In this document: positions 4,432 through 16,483 of the stretch, piece by piece
Layout of the letters: each line of letters starts with the position of its first letter
How positions within the stretch are numbered: the first letter of the stretch is position 1
Assembly (NCBI GenBank): GCA_003278305.1
Contig: QCFU01000003.1
Coordinates: 1 to 64,000 of the forward strand
Origin: Prochlorococcus sp. AG-363-M21
GTDB taxonomy: Bacteria > Cyanobacteriota > Cyanobacteriia > PCC-6307 > Cyanobiaceae
Length of the DNA: 64,000 nucleotides
Direction of reading: 5' to 3'
The notes under the pieces: model-generated
Databases searched by the model: none
What the model saw: only the letters and a program-made list of their open reading frames with translations
What the model was told of the DNA's origin: nothing
Translations under genes and position numbers: made by a program

Positions 4432-4532
4432 AATGAGGGTGAGATTATTAATCCATCCACACATCGCAATACCCCTGAGATCCCATAGCACAACAGGGAC
4501 CTAACTACTGGACCATAAAATGTGATGCATAA
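4432..4532 (+). repeat. EVE 5'-repeat copy A (decayed)
   Basis: This stretch repeats the upstream region and first codons of the EVE gene at 16007. From about 4432 it follows the type I leader shared with copy D (ATGAGGG...ATCCATCCACACATCGCAATA), then GAGATCCCATAGC and ACCTAACTACTGGACCAT. The position of the start codon is ATA (4485-4487) instead of ATG. The frame reads AQQGPNYWTIKCDA and stops at 4532. Similarity begins at about the stop codon of the HEAT gene. Confidence 0.8.
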
Positions 4533-5175: not shown

Positions 5176-5799
5176 TTAAAAAGCGATGACCAAAAAACCT
5201 CCATCTAATTTTCTCAACCAACCAGTTTTCTTCAGTTGAGACAATATCCTTGTAATGGTTACACGCGTTAGTCCTACTGCATTAGCAATATCTTGATGAG
5301 TGATCGAGAAATCAATCATCAAGCCCTCTTCCACTGGCTTACCAAAATCAGTAGCTATCAATTCAAGGAATGCTTTAACCCTTTCTTCGCCAGTCTTGCT
5401 TAAGAGAATAGCCAAATTTAATTGTGTAGAACGATGGCGTAATGAGAGCGACTCCAAAATTGCCAAGGCCAAAGGTGGAGAATTAGATATTTCTTCAGAA
5501 GTGAAGTGTAGTAATTCACAATCAACCAAAGCAAATGGACTGCAGTCGTCAATCAAAGAAAACGCTTCTCCAAACACCTGATTTGGCCCCACAAAACCGA
5601 GAATTGATTCATCCCCATCACTTCTTGGCGCACGTAATTTAATTAATCCTTTAACAACAATCCAGATCTTGCCTTTAAACCAAGGAATATAATTTCCTTT
5701 GGAAATATGAACAATATTCTTTCTAGCAAAACTAGTTTCCAAAAATCTTGACAATCCGTCTAAAACCTTTGGTGAAACCGTGCAATTAGCTGCAGTCAC
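5176..5799 (-). CDS. ptrA: CRP/FNR-family transcription regulator (PtrA-like)
   Basis: This is a 207-aa CRP-type regulator. The N-terminal half is a cyclic-nucleotide-binding-like beta barrel (IWIVVKGLIKLRAPRSDGDES, then FGEAFSLIDD). The C-terminal winged helix-turn-helix covers about residues 165-195 (ITHQDIANAVGLTRVTITRILSQLKKTGWL). Picocyanobacterial genomes carry such a gene, ptrA, next to pstS and related phosphate genes, and the pstS gene here lies 350 bases away. The effector is unknown. An ATCAA-N6-TTGAT palindrome lies 38 bases upstream of its start, in the divergent promoter region. NtcA is an alternative member of the family, but context favours PtrA. Confidence 0.75.
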   Translation of the reverse strand: MTAANCTVSPKVLDGLSRFLETSFARKNIVHISKGNYIPWFKGKIWIVVKGLIKLRAPRSDGDESILGFVGPNQVFGEAFSLIDDCSPFALVDCELLHFTSEEISNSPPLALAILESLSLRHRSTQLNLAILLSKTGEERVKAFLELIATDFGKPVEEGLMIDFSITHQDIANAVGLTRVTITRILSQLKKTGWLRKLDGGFLVIAF

Positions 5800-5836
5800 A
5801 TTTTACTGATTAATCACACAAACAATGTAGCACTAA

Positions 5837-5852
5837 ATCAAGAATAGTTGAT
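5837..5852. promoter_or_regulatory. ATCAA-N6-TTGAT palindrome between ptrA and small ORF
   Basis: ATCAA-GAATAG-TTGAT matches the two tandem sites in the arsR-gap gap base for base in its arms. It abuts a TATAAT -10 candidate at 5852-5857, so a bound protein would block that promoter. The binding protein is unproven: ArsR is the simplest candidate, and the adjacent CRP-family regulator is the alternative. Confidence 0.5.
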
Positions 5853-5857
5853 ATAAT
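5852..5857 (+). promoter_or_regulatory. -10 element for the 58-aa ORF
   Basis: A perfect TATAAT lies about 20 bases before the proposed TTG start at 5879. No good TTGACA is present at -35, which is common in this group. Confidence 0.4.
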
Positions 5858-5878
5858 AAATGCCCACGCATTGCCTCA

Positions 5879-6055
5879 TTGGAAGAGTCTGATCGGTTAC
5901 TACATCAAGCTGCGGAACTTACAGAAACTCTCGACGCAGTTGTGCGTGATTTCTGTGATGCACAAAGGGTTAGTGGTGAAGTCGCCTGGCAATTAATTCA
6001 GGGATTAAGTGACATAAGACTCGAGCGTCTAAGGGGTGAAAGCAGCTCTGAGTGA
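5879..6055 (+). CDS. Small conserved-looking protein, 58 aa, upstream of pstS
   Basis: The frame is open for 59 codons and encodes an acidic amphipathic protein (EESDRLLHQAAELTETLDAV, then VSGEVAWQLIQGLSDIRLER). It has no membrane segment or signal peptide and looks like one or two helices. No ATG or GTG is available; TTG at 5879 is the best start, with ATT at 5870 as an alternative. It lies between ptrA (divergent) and pstS (same strand). I do not recognise the family. Confidence 0.55.
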   Translation: MEESDRLLHQAAELTETLDAVVRDFCDAQRVSGEVAWQLIQGLSDIRLERLRGESSSE

Positions 6056-6086
6056 CGACCTTCCATCATCGTTTTATAGTTTTTAA

Positions 6087-6102
6087 ATCAAGAAAAATTG
6101 AT
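6087..6102. promoter_or_regulatory. ATCAA-N6-TTGAT palindrome upstream of pstS
   Basis: AATCAA-GAAAAA-TTGATT has 6-bp arms containing the same ATCAA/TTGAT core as the arsR operator sites. It lies 50 to 66 bases before the pstS start. No clear tandem Pho box is visible in the same gap. Confidence 0.5.
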
Positions 6103-6152
6103 TAAAGCAACTCTTTTTGATTAATATATGAATGCAATCTTTGCTGTTTGTT

Positions 6153-7142
6153 ATGTCCTTCTCAAAGAAGGCTTTTGCTTTTATCTCACTTGCCGCTCTT
6201 GGCGCTGGTCTTGTTGCCTGTGGATCAAACAACTCTACTTCTGGAGTCAGGTTAAGTGGCGCTGGTGCTAGCTTCCCTGCCAAAATCTACACACGCTGGT
6301 TCTCTGACCTGGATAAAGAGGGTGGTCCTAGAGTGAACTATCAAGCTGTTGGTTCTGGTTCTGGACGAAAAGCTTTCATTGATGAAACAGTTGACTTTGG
6401 AGCGTCTGACGATCCAATGAAAGCCAAAGATATTGGCAAAGTTACACGTGGGTTAGTTCAAATCCCAATGGTGGGAGGCACCATTGCATTTGGCTATAAC
6501 TACGATTGTGACCTCAGGCTTACACAAGAACAAGCAGTTCGTATCGCCATGGGCAAAATCACGGACTGGAGCCAAGTTGGTTGTCCTGCTGGAAAATTAA
6601 CTTGGGCGCATCGTTCTGATGGATCTGGGACAACAAAAGCTTTTACCAATTCCATGCAAGCTTTTTCAAAAGAATGGACTTTAGGGACAGGTAAATCCGT
6701 AGCATGGCCTGTAGGTATTGGAGGGAAAGGTAATGCAGGGGTTGCTGGTCTTATTAGAAAGACACCTGGCACAATTGGCTATGTAAATCAGTCTTATATC
6801 CAAGGAGATGTCAAAGCCGCTGCTTTGCAAAATTTGTCTGGTGAGTTTTTAAAGCCAAGCACCGAAGCTGGTGCAAAGGCTCTAAATGGTATCAACTTGG
6901 ATCAAAACCTCGCAGGGAAGAACCCTAATCCAACGGCTAAAGGGGCATATCCAATTGCTACTTTAACTTGGATCCTTGCTTATGAAACTGGTAATGGCTC
7001 TAAAACAAAAGCCATACAAGAATCACTAAACTATCTTCTTAGTGATAAGGCCCAATCTAAAGCTCCTGACTTAGGGTTTGTTCCTCTGAAAGGGGAAATT
7101 CTGAACAAAGCTCGTTCAGCCGTCAAAAGAATTGGAAAGTAA
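6153..7142 (+). CDS. pstS: Phosphate-binding protein PstS
   Basis: This is the periplasmic phosphate-binding protein of the Pst ABC transporter. A lipoprotein-type signal (MSFSKKAFAFISLAALGAG) ends in the lipobox LVAC, with the cysteine at residue 23. The mature part shows LSGAGASFPAKIYTRWF, VNYQAVGSGSGRKAFI and RSDGSGTTKAFT, the phosphate-contacting loops of the family. An upstream in-frame ATG at 6132 would add seven hydrophobic residues; 6153 gives the better signal peptide. The permease genes pstC, pstA and pstB are not in the window. A strong terminator follows. Confidence 0.92.
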   Translation: MSFSKKAFAFISLAALGAGLVACGSNNSTSGVRLSGAGASFPAKIYTRWFSDLDKEGGPRVNYQAVGSGSGRKAFIDETVDFGASDDPMKAKDIGKVTRGLVQIPMVGGTIAFGYNYDCDLRLTQEQAVRIAMGKITDWSQVGCPAGKLTWAHRSDGSGTTKAFTNSMQAFSKEWTLGTGKSVAWPVGIGGKGNAGVAGLIRKTPGTIGYVNQSYIQGDVKAAALQNLSGEFLKPSTEAGAKALNGINLDQNLAGKNPNPTAKGAYPIATLTWILAYETGNGSKTKAIQESLNYLLSDKAQSKAPDLGFVPLKGEILNKARSAVKRIGK

Positions 7143-7207: not shown

Positions 7208-8482
7208 TTAGGCTTGTGCAGAATCCTTTTCAAAAAAGTCAGGGTTATTTGTAGAAGGAAGCTCAAGACTGGTCAACCATGAGAAGAATACGAACAAACT
7301 TGAACACCATAAACAAACTTGCATTCCCATAGAGGCATTTGTCCCTAGCATAAATAAGACACCAGATAAGAGCGTACCAATCAGTCTCCCTGCCGCATTT
7401 GCCATGTAATAGAAGCCCACATTTAGACTTACGTTTTCCTTATCCGTATATGCAAGAACCATATATGAATGTATCGATGAGTTCATTGCAAAAATGAATC
7501 CAAATATTATTAATCCAACTGTAATTGCTATTTCTGGATTGCTTTGTCGCCATAGTGCTATAGCTATTAGAGCTGGTATTGCAGTTAAGACAGCGCTCCA
7601 GAATTGAACAGAAGAAACCCCTGGGCTTCTTTTATTTCCCCATAAATTTCTTAAAGACGGCGCAAACGCTTGGATAAAGCCATAACCAATAACCCACAAT
7701 CCTAGGAACGCTCCAATCTCAGAAAAATTCCAATTTAGATACGTTTCAAGAAAAACAGGTAATGCCACAACGAACCATACGTCTCTTGCCCCAAAGAGAA
7801 AAAAGCGTGCAAAAGAGAGGACATTGATCCCTTGAGATTTAGAAAATAAGTCTTTGAAGATTGGTTTGCTTTTCATCTTCCCAATGTCTCCAGGCAAAAT
7901 TAATGTCAATAAAAACGAAACACCTAAACCGATTGCCATTAATGCAACTGCTGTATTAAAACCAAAACTGGTCAGCAAAAGTCCACCAAGAAAAAAGCCA
8001 ACTCCTTTGAGTGCATTTTTTGAACCAGTTAAGATAGCAACCCATTTGAACAATTGATTATTTCCACCATCTTCTTCAGGGGAATCTGGAACGACAGTTT
8101 TGATTGCACTTTTGGCACTCATCTTATTGAGATCTTTTGCTATACCACTAATCGCTTGAGCAACCATGACATAAATGACACTCAAAAGTTTCGACCAACT
8201 ACTCGAAACTGGTATCAACATCAATAAGGCCACTATTTGTAAAAGAGTCCCGACCCATAGTGTTAGACGTAATCCATATCTTGCTCCAATCCATCCACCA
8301 TAGAGATTAGTGACGATGCCAAAGAACTCGTAAAAAAGGAATAAGAATGCGATTTCTAAGGTTGTATATCCAAGGCTATGAAAGTGAAAAATCACTAGCA
8401 TCCTTAGAGCACCATCTGTAAGTGTGAATGCCCAATAGTTGGTCGTTACGATTCCATATTGCTGTAATGACGATAATCTCAT
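7208..8482 (-). CDS. arsJ: ArsJ-type MFS exporter of arseno-phosphoglycerate
   Basis: This is a 424-aa major facilitator protein with about 12 membrane helices. The N-terminus (YGIVTTNYWAFTLTDGALRM, then LVIFHFHSLGYTTLEIAFLF and YEFFGIVTNLYGGWIGAR) is typical of ArsJ. ArsJ is known to export 1-arseno-3-phosphoglycerate, the unstable product that GAPDH makes from arsenate. The gene for such a GAPDH is directly upstream, 10 bases away on the same strand, and arsR is divergent. A generic MFS transporter is unlikely given this pairing. Confidence 0.85.
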   Translation of the reverse strand: MRLSSLQQYGIVTTNYWAFTLTDGALRMLVIFHFHSLGYTTLEIAFLFLFYEFFGIVTNLYGGWIGARYGLRLTLWVGTLLQIVALLMLIPVSSSWSKLLSVIYVMVAQAISGIAKDLNKMSAKSAIKTVVPDSPEEDGGNNQLFKWVAILTGSKNALKGVGFFLGGLLLTSFGFNTAVALMAIGLGVSFLLTLILPGDIGKMKSKPIFKDLFSKSQGINVLSFARFFLFGARDVWFVVALPVFLETYLNWNFSEIGAFLGLWVIGYGFIQAFAPSLRNLWGNKRSPGVSSVQFWSAVLTAIPALIAIALWRQSNPEIAITVGLIIFGFIFAMNSSIHSYMVLAYTDKENVSLNVGFYYMANAAGRLIGTLLSGVLFMLGTNASMGMQVCLWCSSLFVFFSWLTSLELPSTNNPDFFEKDSAQA

Positions 8483-8492
8483 GCTTTTATTT

Positions 8493-9518
8493 TTATTCTT
8501 TTTCTAGCTTTATTACATGTGACACCAGATCAGCCATCCGACAGCTATACCCCCATTCATTGTCATACCAAATATAAACTTTAAGTTGAGTTTTGTTGAC
8601 CACCATGGTTGAGAGAGCATCAATAATTGAACTCCTGGAGTCATTGACATAATCAATAGAGACAAGTGGTTTTTCTTCGTAACCGAGTATTCCTTTTAGC
8701 TCTCCTTCTGAAGCTTCTTTGAACACATGATTGACTTCTTCTTGCGTTACCTCTTTCTCTAATTCAAATACAGCATCAGTTAAAGATCCATTGAGGAGAG
8801 GAACTCGAACTGCATGGCCATTTAATTTGCCTTGTAATTCTGGGAAAATCATCCCTATCGCTTTTGCTGAGCCTGTTGTTGTTGGTATTAAACTTTGTGA
8901 TCCACTTCTGGCTCTTCTTAAGTCTGGCTTAAATGAATCAACTATGACTTGTGTATTTGTTAGGTCATGGAGAGTTGTAATGCTTCCATGCTTAATACCA
9001 AAGGCTTGATTAACGACCTTTACAACTGGAGCTAAACAATTAGTCGTGCAGGATGCAGCAGTTATTAAGCGATGTTTATTTGGTTTATATAAATCGTGGT
9101 TAATACCGTAGACGATATTCAGAGCATCCTCTCCCTGGATTTCACCTTTAACAGGACATGCAACGACAACTCTTTTCATCCCTAAAGTATCGAAATATGG
9201 ATTTAACGTTTGAGGAGATTTGAATTTTCCTGAGCATTCGAGAATTAGCTCTATCCCTGTCTCATCCCATTGAACTTTTGTGAAATCGCTTTCTTGTGAA
9301 AAAGATATTGAGTGCCCTTCTATAGATAGTTTGTTCTGGTCGGAACTTATTAATTTATCCCATCGGCCGTGAACAGAATCAAACTCCAGTAAATGTGCAG
9401 CCCCCTTTGCATCCCCGAATGAGTCATTGATATGTGTAATCTCGATATTTTCTCTATCCCAGAGAGCTCTAAGAACAAGTCGCCCTATACGACCAAACCC
9501 ATTAATACCAATGCGCAT
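8493..9518 (-). CDS. gap: Glyceraldehyde-3-phosphate dehydrogenase, arsenic-linked
   Basis: This is a full-length GAPDH with the Rossmann start [19 protein letters not shown], the active-site SCTTNC (Cys157) and the catalytic His184 in TLHDLTNTQ. The C-terminal [12 protein letters not shown] is the usual signature. The start at 9518 is chosen because the family begins at MRIGINGFG; two ATGs up to 9542 would add eight residues. GAPDHs paired with arsJ accept arsenate and make 1-arseno-3-phosphoglycerate for export. A purely glycolytic role is possible, but the operon with arsJ and the ArsR-type operators upstream favour arsenate detoxification. Confidence 0.88.
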
Positions 9519-9549
9519 AAAACTCCGCATGACAAAATGCATGTATAGT

Positions 9550-9587
9550 ATATATCAAGAATTATTGATATATCAATCTCTGTTGAT
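9550..9587. promoter_or_regulatory. Tandem ArsR-type operator between gap and arsR
   Basis: Two ATCAA-N6-TTGAT palindromes sit 18 bases apart (9554-9569 and 9572-9587). The first has perfect 9-bp arms (ATATATCAA and TTGATATAT). They fill the divergent region between gap-arsJ and arsR. Inverted repeats of this form are known operators of ArsR-family repressors. Dimers on the two sites would lie on nearly the same DNA face region, about 1.7 turns apart. Confidence 0.75.
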
Positions 9588-9637
9588 AGCTGTGGCAATT
9601 CTTGTAAAATTACAACATTACTCTGGCTGACTAATTA

Positions 9638-9949
9638 ATGAGTACAGGTGTCGCCAATAAAAAAGCAATAGATTCACTCAAAGCCTTAGCAGAACCTATC
9701 AGATTGGAAATAATTGAATCCTTGTCCAGTGGGGAAAAATGTGTTTGTGACCTTATGCAAGAGACAGGTTTAGCGCAATCCAAAATTTCTTTTCACCTCA
9801 AGGTTCTTAAAGACGCTGGGGTTATCACGGATAGGCAAAGTGGCCGCTGGGTATATTACCAACTCGATATAAGAACATTAAAGTCTTTGCAGAATTGGAT
9901 CAAAAAACTAAGAAAAGGGTGCCTGAATGAAGCGTCTACTTGTGAATAA
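9638..9949 (+). CDS. arsR: ArsR-family arsenic-responsive repressor
   Basis: This 103-aa winged helix-turn-helix protein has the ArsR/SmtB fold: LKALAEPIRLEIIESLSSGE, recognition helix AQSKISFHLKVLKDAGVI, and wing DRQSGRWVYYQL. It carries the arsenic-binding CVCD motif (C35, C37); further cysteines at 95 and 102 could complete a thiol site. Such proteins leave DNA when arsenite or antimonite binds. The gene is divergent from gap-arsJ, with the tandem operator between them. Confidence 0.88.
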   Translation: MSTGVANKKAIDSLKALAEPIRLEIIESLSSGEKCVCDLMQETGLAQSKISFHLKVLKDAGVITDRQSGRWVYYQLDIRTLKSLQNWIKKLRKGCLNEASTCE

Positions 9950-16006: not shown

Positions 16007-16483
16007 ATGGCATCAAAGGAACCTAACTACTGGCTAATGAAAAGTGAGCCTGATGCATACTCAATTAGTGACTTAAGAAATGAGGCGGAAACCATATGGG
16101 ATGGAATTAGGAACTACCAAGCAAGGAATTTTATGAGATCGATGAAAATAGGTGACAAAGCTTTCTTCTATCATTCCAATTGCAAGCCCCCAGGAATTGT
16201 TGGCCTAATGGAAGTAATAGAAACTAAAATCACAGATCCTACTCAATTTGAAAAATCTTCAAAATATTTTGATCCAAAATCTTTGAAAGACAAACCAAGA
16301 TGGGACTGCGCAAAATTGAAATATTTAGGGCAATTTAAGGAAAAACTAACTCTTGAAGAAATACGAAAAGAATTCAATTCAGATGAATTAGTTTTAGTAA
16401 GGAGTGGAAACAGATTATCTATTATCCCTGTAGAAGCAAATGTTGCATATAGGCTTTTTAATTTACTTGGTGATGCAAACTAA
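16007..16483 (+). CDS. EVE-domain protein, intact copy F
   Basis: This 158-aa protein is a complete EVE (PUA-like) domain: NYWLMKSEPDAYSISDL, WDGIRNYQARNFMRSMKIGD, AFFYHSNCKPPGIVGLMEV and, near the end, VLVRSGNRLSIIPV. EVE proteins bind modified bases in DNA or RNA, and in other bacteria they join restriction or defence systems. The cellular role in cyanobacteria is not known. The leader contains GAGATAATAGAA at about 15914 and TTTTCGCTGAGATCCC directly before ATG. Five partial copies of this gene's 5' end lie upstream on the same strand. Confidence 0.9.
   Translation: MASKEPNYWLMKSEPDAYSISDLRNEAETIWDGIRNYQARNFMRSMKIGDKAFFYHSNCKPPGIVGLMEVIETKITDPTQFEKSSKYFDPKSLKDKPRWDCAKLKYLGQFKEKLTLEEIRKEFNSDELVLVRSGNRLSIIPVEANVAYRLFNLLGDAN

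Follow-up and report, generated by a model that had tools for sequence, protein, structure and literature searches.

The question raised by this locus is why one short palindrome should stand beside genes for both arsenic resistance and phosphate uptake, and which protein would read it. The window analysed here, a 64-kb stretch of a low-light-type Prochlorococcus draft genome, holds four exact copies of ATCAA-N6-TTGAT by pattern search (5837-5852, 6087-6102, 9554-9569 and 9572-9587, and none elsewhere in the 64 kb), where 0.33 would be expected; at least four exact copies occurred in 0 of 100 dinucleotide shuffles of the window. All four are intergenic and lie within 3.75 kb, from ptrA to arsR, an arrangement with P ~1e-8 at the genome background rate. 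The preliminary description had reported the first two copies, together with the sites at arsR, as four within 4 kb and none inside a gene, and this is confirmed, as is its remark that the first copy touches a TATAAT box, with which it has one T in common. It had also suggested a genome-wide scan for the motif. In the window the outcome depends on stringency: the exact form is clustered beyond chance, whereas a pattern allowing up to two mismatches matches 92 times in the window against 81 expected, which is chance level, so that the informative form is the exact palindrome only.

The genome as a whole (G000, a 1.16-Mb draft, 70% complete) carries 11 exact sites by pattern search. Six of the seven outside the cluster fall within coding sequence. 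The sole other intergenic site (G000:C6:39624-39639, locus L009) stands before a short-chain-dehydrogenase-like gene, and none of the 14 exact sites in the sister genome G016 is identical to it in sequence. On these two grounds, a wider regulon in this genome was rejected. The cluster itself is made up as follows.

5176-5799, minus strand: ptrA-like Crp/Fnr regulator, GTG start; best match the NCBIfam PtrA model (197.7 bits, under its 300-bit cut-off), with Pfam HTH_Crp_2 and cNMP_binding
5837-5852, no strand: ArsR-box 1, candidate operator between ptrA and the small ORF, ATCAAGAATAGTTGAT
5852-5857, plus strand: TATAAT box, one base common with ArsR-box 1, facing the small ORF
5879-6055, plus strand: 58-aa ORF, TTG start, no family
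6087-6102, no strand: ArsR-box 2, candidate pstS operator, ATCAAGAAAAATTGAT, ending 50 bp before the conserved pstS ATG at 6153
6098-6127, plus strand: probable pstS promoter, TTGATT 6098-6103 and TAATAT 6122-6127, spacer 18, read from sequence and alignment
6153-7142, plus strand: pstS, phosphate-binding protein with a lipoprotein-like signal (TIGR00975, 236 bits, cut-off 205)
7208-8482, minus strand: arsJ, organoarsenical efflux MFS protein (NF033734, 580 bits, cut-off 400)
8493-9542, minus strand: gapJ, ArsJ-associated GAPDH (NF033735, 555 bits, cut-off 450)
9554-9569, no strand: ArsR-box 3, candidate, in the arsR-gapJ intergenic region, within the spacer of the gapJ promoter
9572-9587, no strand: ArsR-box 4, candidate, 18 bp from box 3, overlapping the -35 of gapJ and of arsR
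9638-9949, plus strand: arsR, arsenite-type ArsR repressor with a CVC motif (NF033788, 94 bits, cut-off 55; PF01022, 2.2e-18)

The arsJ and gapJ proteins both score above curated cut-offs, and the ArsJ/GAPDH arsenate-efflux pair is thus present. Because Acr3 efflux was not found in the window clade, this pair appears to be the main arsenic efflux route there. An ArsC-type reductase was found in sister genomes and not in the incomplete window draft. The promoter scan gives TTGATA 9576-9571 and TATACT 9552-9547 for gapJ and TTGATA 9583-9588 and TAAAAT 9605-9610 for arsR. The probable pstS promoter is absent from the scan's matches; its TTGATT overlaps ArsR-box 2, and its -10 reads TAGAAT in aligned relatives. 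The pstS ORF is open also from ATG 6132. As a separate observation, a motif that codes for (E)PNYWIMK-like peptides recurs at six scattered places in the window (at 4500, 5110, 10171, 11291, 13904 and 16022), one long at 16022 and the other five shorter fragments; we take the motif to be the start of an apparent EVE-domain protein.

We propose, with a probability of roughly 0.85, that the arsenite-sensing ArsR encoded next to the palindrome uses it as its operator, and would repress the promoters of the cluster until arsenite releases the protein. Proteins of the ArsR family are established as repressors released by arsenite. The boxes overlap promoter elements, a layout like that of a repressor blocking RNA polymerase, and the likely mechanism is therefore repression lifted by arsenite. 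One ArsR dimer per box would sit over the promoter elements and repress arsR, gapJ-arsJ, pstS and the region of ptrA and the small ORF. Arsenate imported via the phosphate system would be reduced to arsenite, and ArsR would then be released; the cell would make the arsenate-exporting gapJ/ArsJ pair as well as additional high-affinity PstS and the phosphate regulator that goes with it. The expected outcome is that phosphate is favoured over arsenate in uptake as gapJ and arsJ export arsenate as 1-arseno-3-phosphoglycerate; the benefit is probably a more phosphate-selective uptake during arsenate export. The identity, enrichment and conservation of the sites, their overlap with promoter-like elements and their independence of PtrA were computed. 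What we infer is that ArsR binds, which way it regulates, that arsenite is its signal and that the cell benefits.

Evidence for maintenance of the sites comes from about 180 loci centred on ars or pstS, in which we counted distinct 200-bp upstream regions and used 19 permutations of the half-site as controls. Taken as counts over loci that are kin by descent and not as independent events, the box is found upstream of gapJ beside arsR in 80 of 87 distinct regions (Prochlorococcus, Synechococcus and Cyanobium), upstream of ars-linked pstS in 44 of 57 and upstream of unlinked pstS in 6 of 41, and the permuted palindromes have 0 or 1 occurrences each. The box is lacking in the other 35 unlinked regions, that is, the unlinked pst copy is mostly outside the putative regulon; one of the six positives, L114, in fact represents the linked pstS of G007. 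The genome G010, with two pstS copies, has the box only at the ars-linked one. Of 16 pstS loci from genomes in which no ArsR was found, some of these genomes being incomplete, 1 has a box. Counting against the proposal are the five truly unlinked pstS copies that carry the box and the high-light strains, in which it is mostly missing at pstS and found at phoB instead. (The high-light, NATL-type and Synechococcus-type labels used here are our assumption from genome size, grouping and the genome lengths of strains.)

Within the window clade both sets of half-sites are fully invariant while neighbouring non-coding columns vary. At ArsR-box 2, all 10 half-site columns are invariant, as against 1 of 6 in the spacer and 3 of 31 in the flank at 6056-6086. 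ArsR-box 1 likewise has 10/10 invariant half-site columns in 12 aligned sequences, with only 9/37 in the flank at 5800-5836 and, in the same alignment of the window clade, 4 of 6 in the TATAAT box. Across genomes, 37 different spacers occur at pstS boxes with the half-sites fixed. Box positions, single or tandem layout and spacers vary among clades, which argues that it is the half-sites themselves that are under maintenance. Some 140 bp beyond arsR on its downstream side, and close to a small ORF, L196 has a further conserved exact box (L196:8429), which about 13 NATL-type loci have at the corresponding position.

What binds these sites? The best candidate for all of them is the adjacent arsenite-type ArsR, because of its position and its invariant Cys-Val-Cys arsenite site (C35-V36-C37 in 20 aligned sequences). 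Its winged-helix domain is present (on the PF01022 and NF033788 matches), its recognition-helix region is mostly or nearly conserved across genomes having the box, and the window protein is identical to that of the related locus L172 (Prochlorococcus sp. AG-363-N16). From Cyanobium to Prochlorococcus, arsR stays beside the box. The cross-genome comparison thus strongly supports the earlier suggestion that ArsR would act at pstS and at a CRP-family regulator. That suggestion is refined in two respects: arsenic would be expected to induce pstS, given the repressor family, and the predicted reach extends to phoB where a lineage has kept PhoB.

The preliminary description had offered, as an alternative, that PtrA binds all four sites. 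One site does adjoin ptrA, and a 5-6-5 palindrome fits the dimensions of sites bound by the CRP family, to which this Crp/Fnr-type phosphate regulator belongs; the half-site orientation, however, is the reverse of that in the FNR consensus, TTGAT-N4-ATCAA. The complete genomes G052, G056, G058 and G172 contradict the alternative directly, since their best hits to PtrA, at ~1e-16 to 1e-17, are such as NtcA would be expected to give, and yet they retain boxes at pstS and/or arsR/gapJ. Moreover, no Synechococcus or Cyanobium ptrA examined has a box, though gapJ promoters in those genera do. We therefore rejected PtrA as the common binder and consider it extremely improbable. A different objection is that the arsR/gapJ pair of sites alone is functional and that the copies at pstS and ptrA are chance matches or inherited relics. 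The DNA is AT-rich and most exact sites elsewhere in the genome are genic and chance-like, as this would have it; but half-sites that are invariant between variable flanks, that recur at linked pstS promoters at a rate the control palindromes never approach, and that are kept as position, layout and spacer differ by clade make this reading very improbable as well.

A third explanation is that another repressor owns the site, either a second metal sensor of the ArsR/SmtB family or some unknown regulator. Two or more ArsR-like genes are present in some genomes, and binding by ArsR is itself a reading of the sequence. Nevertheless, the box adjoins this particular arsR in nearly all lineages, and at L071 a pstS-arsR pair without gapJ/arsJ still has two boxes before pstS. 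Nor can PhoB be the binder in genomes like that of SS120, since a search of them yielded no PhoB. We regard another owner as unlikely, and retain ArsR as the proposed binder.

With ArsR as the proposed binder, ArsR-box 1 could act on ptrA, on the small ORF or on the two together. The GTG of ptrA lies 37 bp from the nearer edge of the box. The preliminary description had placed this copy at ptrA and the small ORF, and the position of the box agrees; the status of the small ORF as a gene is doubtful. The 58-aa ORF has only a TTG start and, although unbroken in the window genome, is frameshifted or truncated in several relatives (L043, L045, L046, L048, L053); for these reasons it may not be a conserved gene. 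In the relatives with a broken ORF the box is kept, and usually the -10 before the ORF too; it is this decay of the ORF beside a lasting box that leaves the three targets. Some homologues of the ORF elsewhere in Prochlorococcus also sit behind ArsR-boxes. A box is upstream of ptrA in 18 Prochlorococcus loci, in three gene arrangements; the 14 ptrA loci without one are of Synechococcus/Cyanobium type, except for one Prochlorococcus single cell (AG-412-I05).

The box also reaches phoB, where it is present in 12 of 13 high-light and NATL-type loci (9/10 high-light, 3/3 NATL-type). The tenth high-light phoB (L277) has a box with one mismatch, and none of 17 Synechococcus-type phoB loci has one. 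At L268-L277, L285, L286 and L296 the phoB box lies 20-33 bp upstream of the aligned start. A search for PhoB found none in the genomes of the window clade, the 99%-complete G010 among them, and the pattern used for a tandem Pho box (CTTAACC-like repeats) found none in 98 pstS upstream regions; a Pho box, the PhoB site, was accordingly rejected at pstS. One candidate operator sequence is common to an ars promoter and a pstS promoter, as expected for control of the Agrobacterium ArsR1 type, and it recurs at a phosphate regulator gene, ptrA or phoB. Because it stands at pstS, ptrA or phoB according to lineage, the box in Prochlorococcus appears to mark pstS plus whichever phosphate regulator the lineage kept, and in the Synechococcus and Cyanobium loci examined gapJ/arsR only.

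The same element occurs in cyanophages. An exact box lies about 37 bp before a DUF680-pstS pair in P-SSM2 (L300:111-126), P-SSM5 (L302:424-439) and P-SSM7 (L305:430-445), just after a CTTAACC Pho-box-like sequence, and is absent from the other ten phage pstS regions examined. It abuts TATAAT in P-SSM2 and P-SSM5, as does ArsR-box 1 of the window, and TGTAAT in P-SSM7; the box-to-TATAAT arrangement TTGATATAAT recurs at NATL-type phoB and at P-SSM2 pstS. The recorded hosts of the three phages are NATL1A or NATL2A. P-SSM2 and P-SSM5 are one species, and with P-SSM7 the promoter block spans two phage genera; since it is common to all three, it may reflect a single transfer event. These promoters suggest that some phage pstS genes might listen to the arsenic sensor of the host.

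If the proposal is correct, arsenic, a phosphate analogue in seawater, probably switches phosphate uptake directly in Prochlorococcus, and a dominant ocean phototroph would have both phosphate uptake and its regulators (PtrA or PhoB) under arsenic control. Strain SS120 lacks phoBR, has two PstS and shows no PstS response to phosphate depletion, which has been called puzzling (PMC3349580). G010 is probably this strain, and ArsR control of the ars-linked pstS may explain the non-induction. It is tempting, if still rather doubtful, to go further and suppose that Prochlorococcus judges phosphate shortage by proxy, through its arsenic sensor: where PhoBR is missing, as in SS120, arsenite would report a high arsenate-to-phosphate ratio and directly switch on PstS and PtrA, lineages that keep PhoB would have ArsR gate phoB, and some cyanophages would carry the same operator on their pstS promoter.

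Among known cyanobacterial systems, Synechocystis 6803 also has an arsenite-responsive ArsR repressor, where arsR is unlinked and the ArsR regulon numbers just five genes and contains no pst gene (PMC4010505). Arsenic lowers phosphate-transport transcripts there (PMC4010505). Both the small regulon and this fall count against our model; as ArsR-family repressors are released by arsenite, arsenic should raise, not lower, the PstS of this cluster. Other cyanobacterial ars clusters bring arsR, pstS/sphX, GAPDH (gap3) and an MFS gene together, as here (PMC4284471; Nodularia, PMC9846622), and a review noticed pstS beside ars genes and suggested co-regulation from gene order (PMC4284471); the passages considered offer the gene-order suggestion only, and mention neither an operator nor a connection with ptrA or phoB. 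ArsJ and GAPDH export 1-arseno-3-phosphoglycerate in the GFAJ-1 arsenic island, which has pst genes alongside as in the window (PMC5930303), and in the V. cholerae var operon, a single ArsR-repressed operon whose ArsR has a changed arsenite motif (PMC9601151). The window differs from V. cholerae in keeping the ArsR motif intact, in the divergent orientation of arsR and gapJ, and in a separate candidate operator for pstS.

The closest parallel is Agrobacterium tumefaciens 5A, the soil bacterium for which alone we found an experimental demonstration of an arsenic sensor wired directly to phosphate uptake. There, pstS1 and phoB1 are both repressed by ArsR1, which binds in the region separating the two genes (PMC7965956). 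In both systems an arsenite-responsive ArsR is paired with a pstS next to it and with a gene for a phosphate regulator, and the unlinked pst locus is left out (PMC7965956). The motifs proposed for Agrobacterium misfit a 12-2-12 inverted-repeat model and lie mostly at least 100-150 nt upstream (PMC7965956), whereas Prochlorococcus has one 16-bp palindrome over promoter elements, PtrA or PhoB as the regulator depending on lineage, and gapJ/arsJ as the means of resistance. No matching operator appeared in the titles and abstracts of ArsR literature holding the half-site words, and the literature searched, mostly without subscription journals, gave no description of the candidate operator of the window, of its extension to ptrA and phoB or of how it varies by lineage. 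ArsR control of pstS and phoB was already known; what is new here is the candidate operator, its lineage-wide spread to ptrA and phoB, and its copies at cyanophage pstS promoters.
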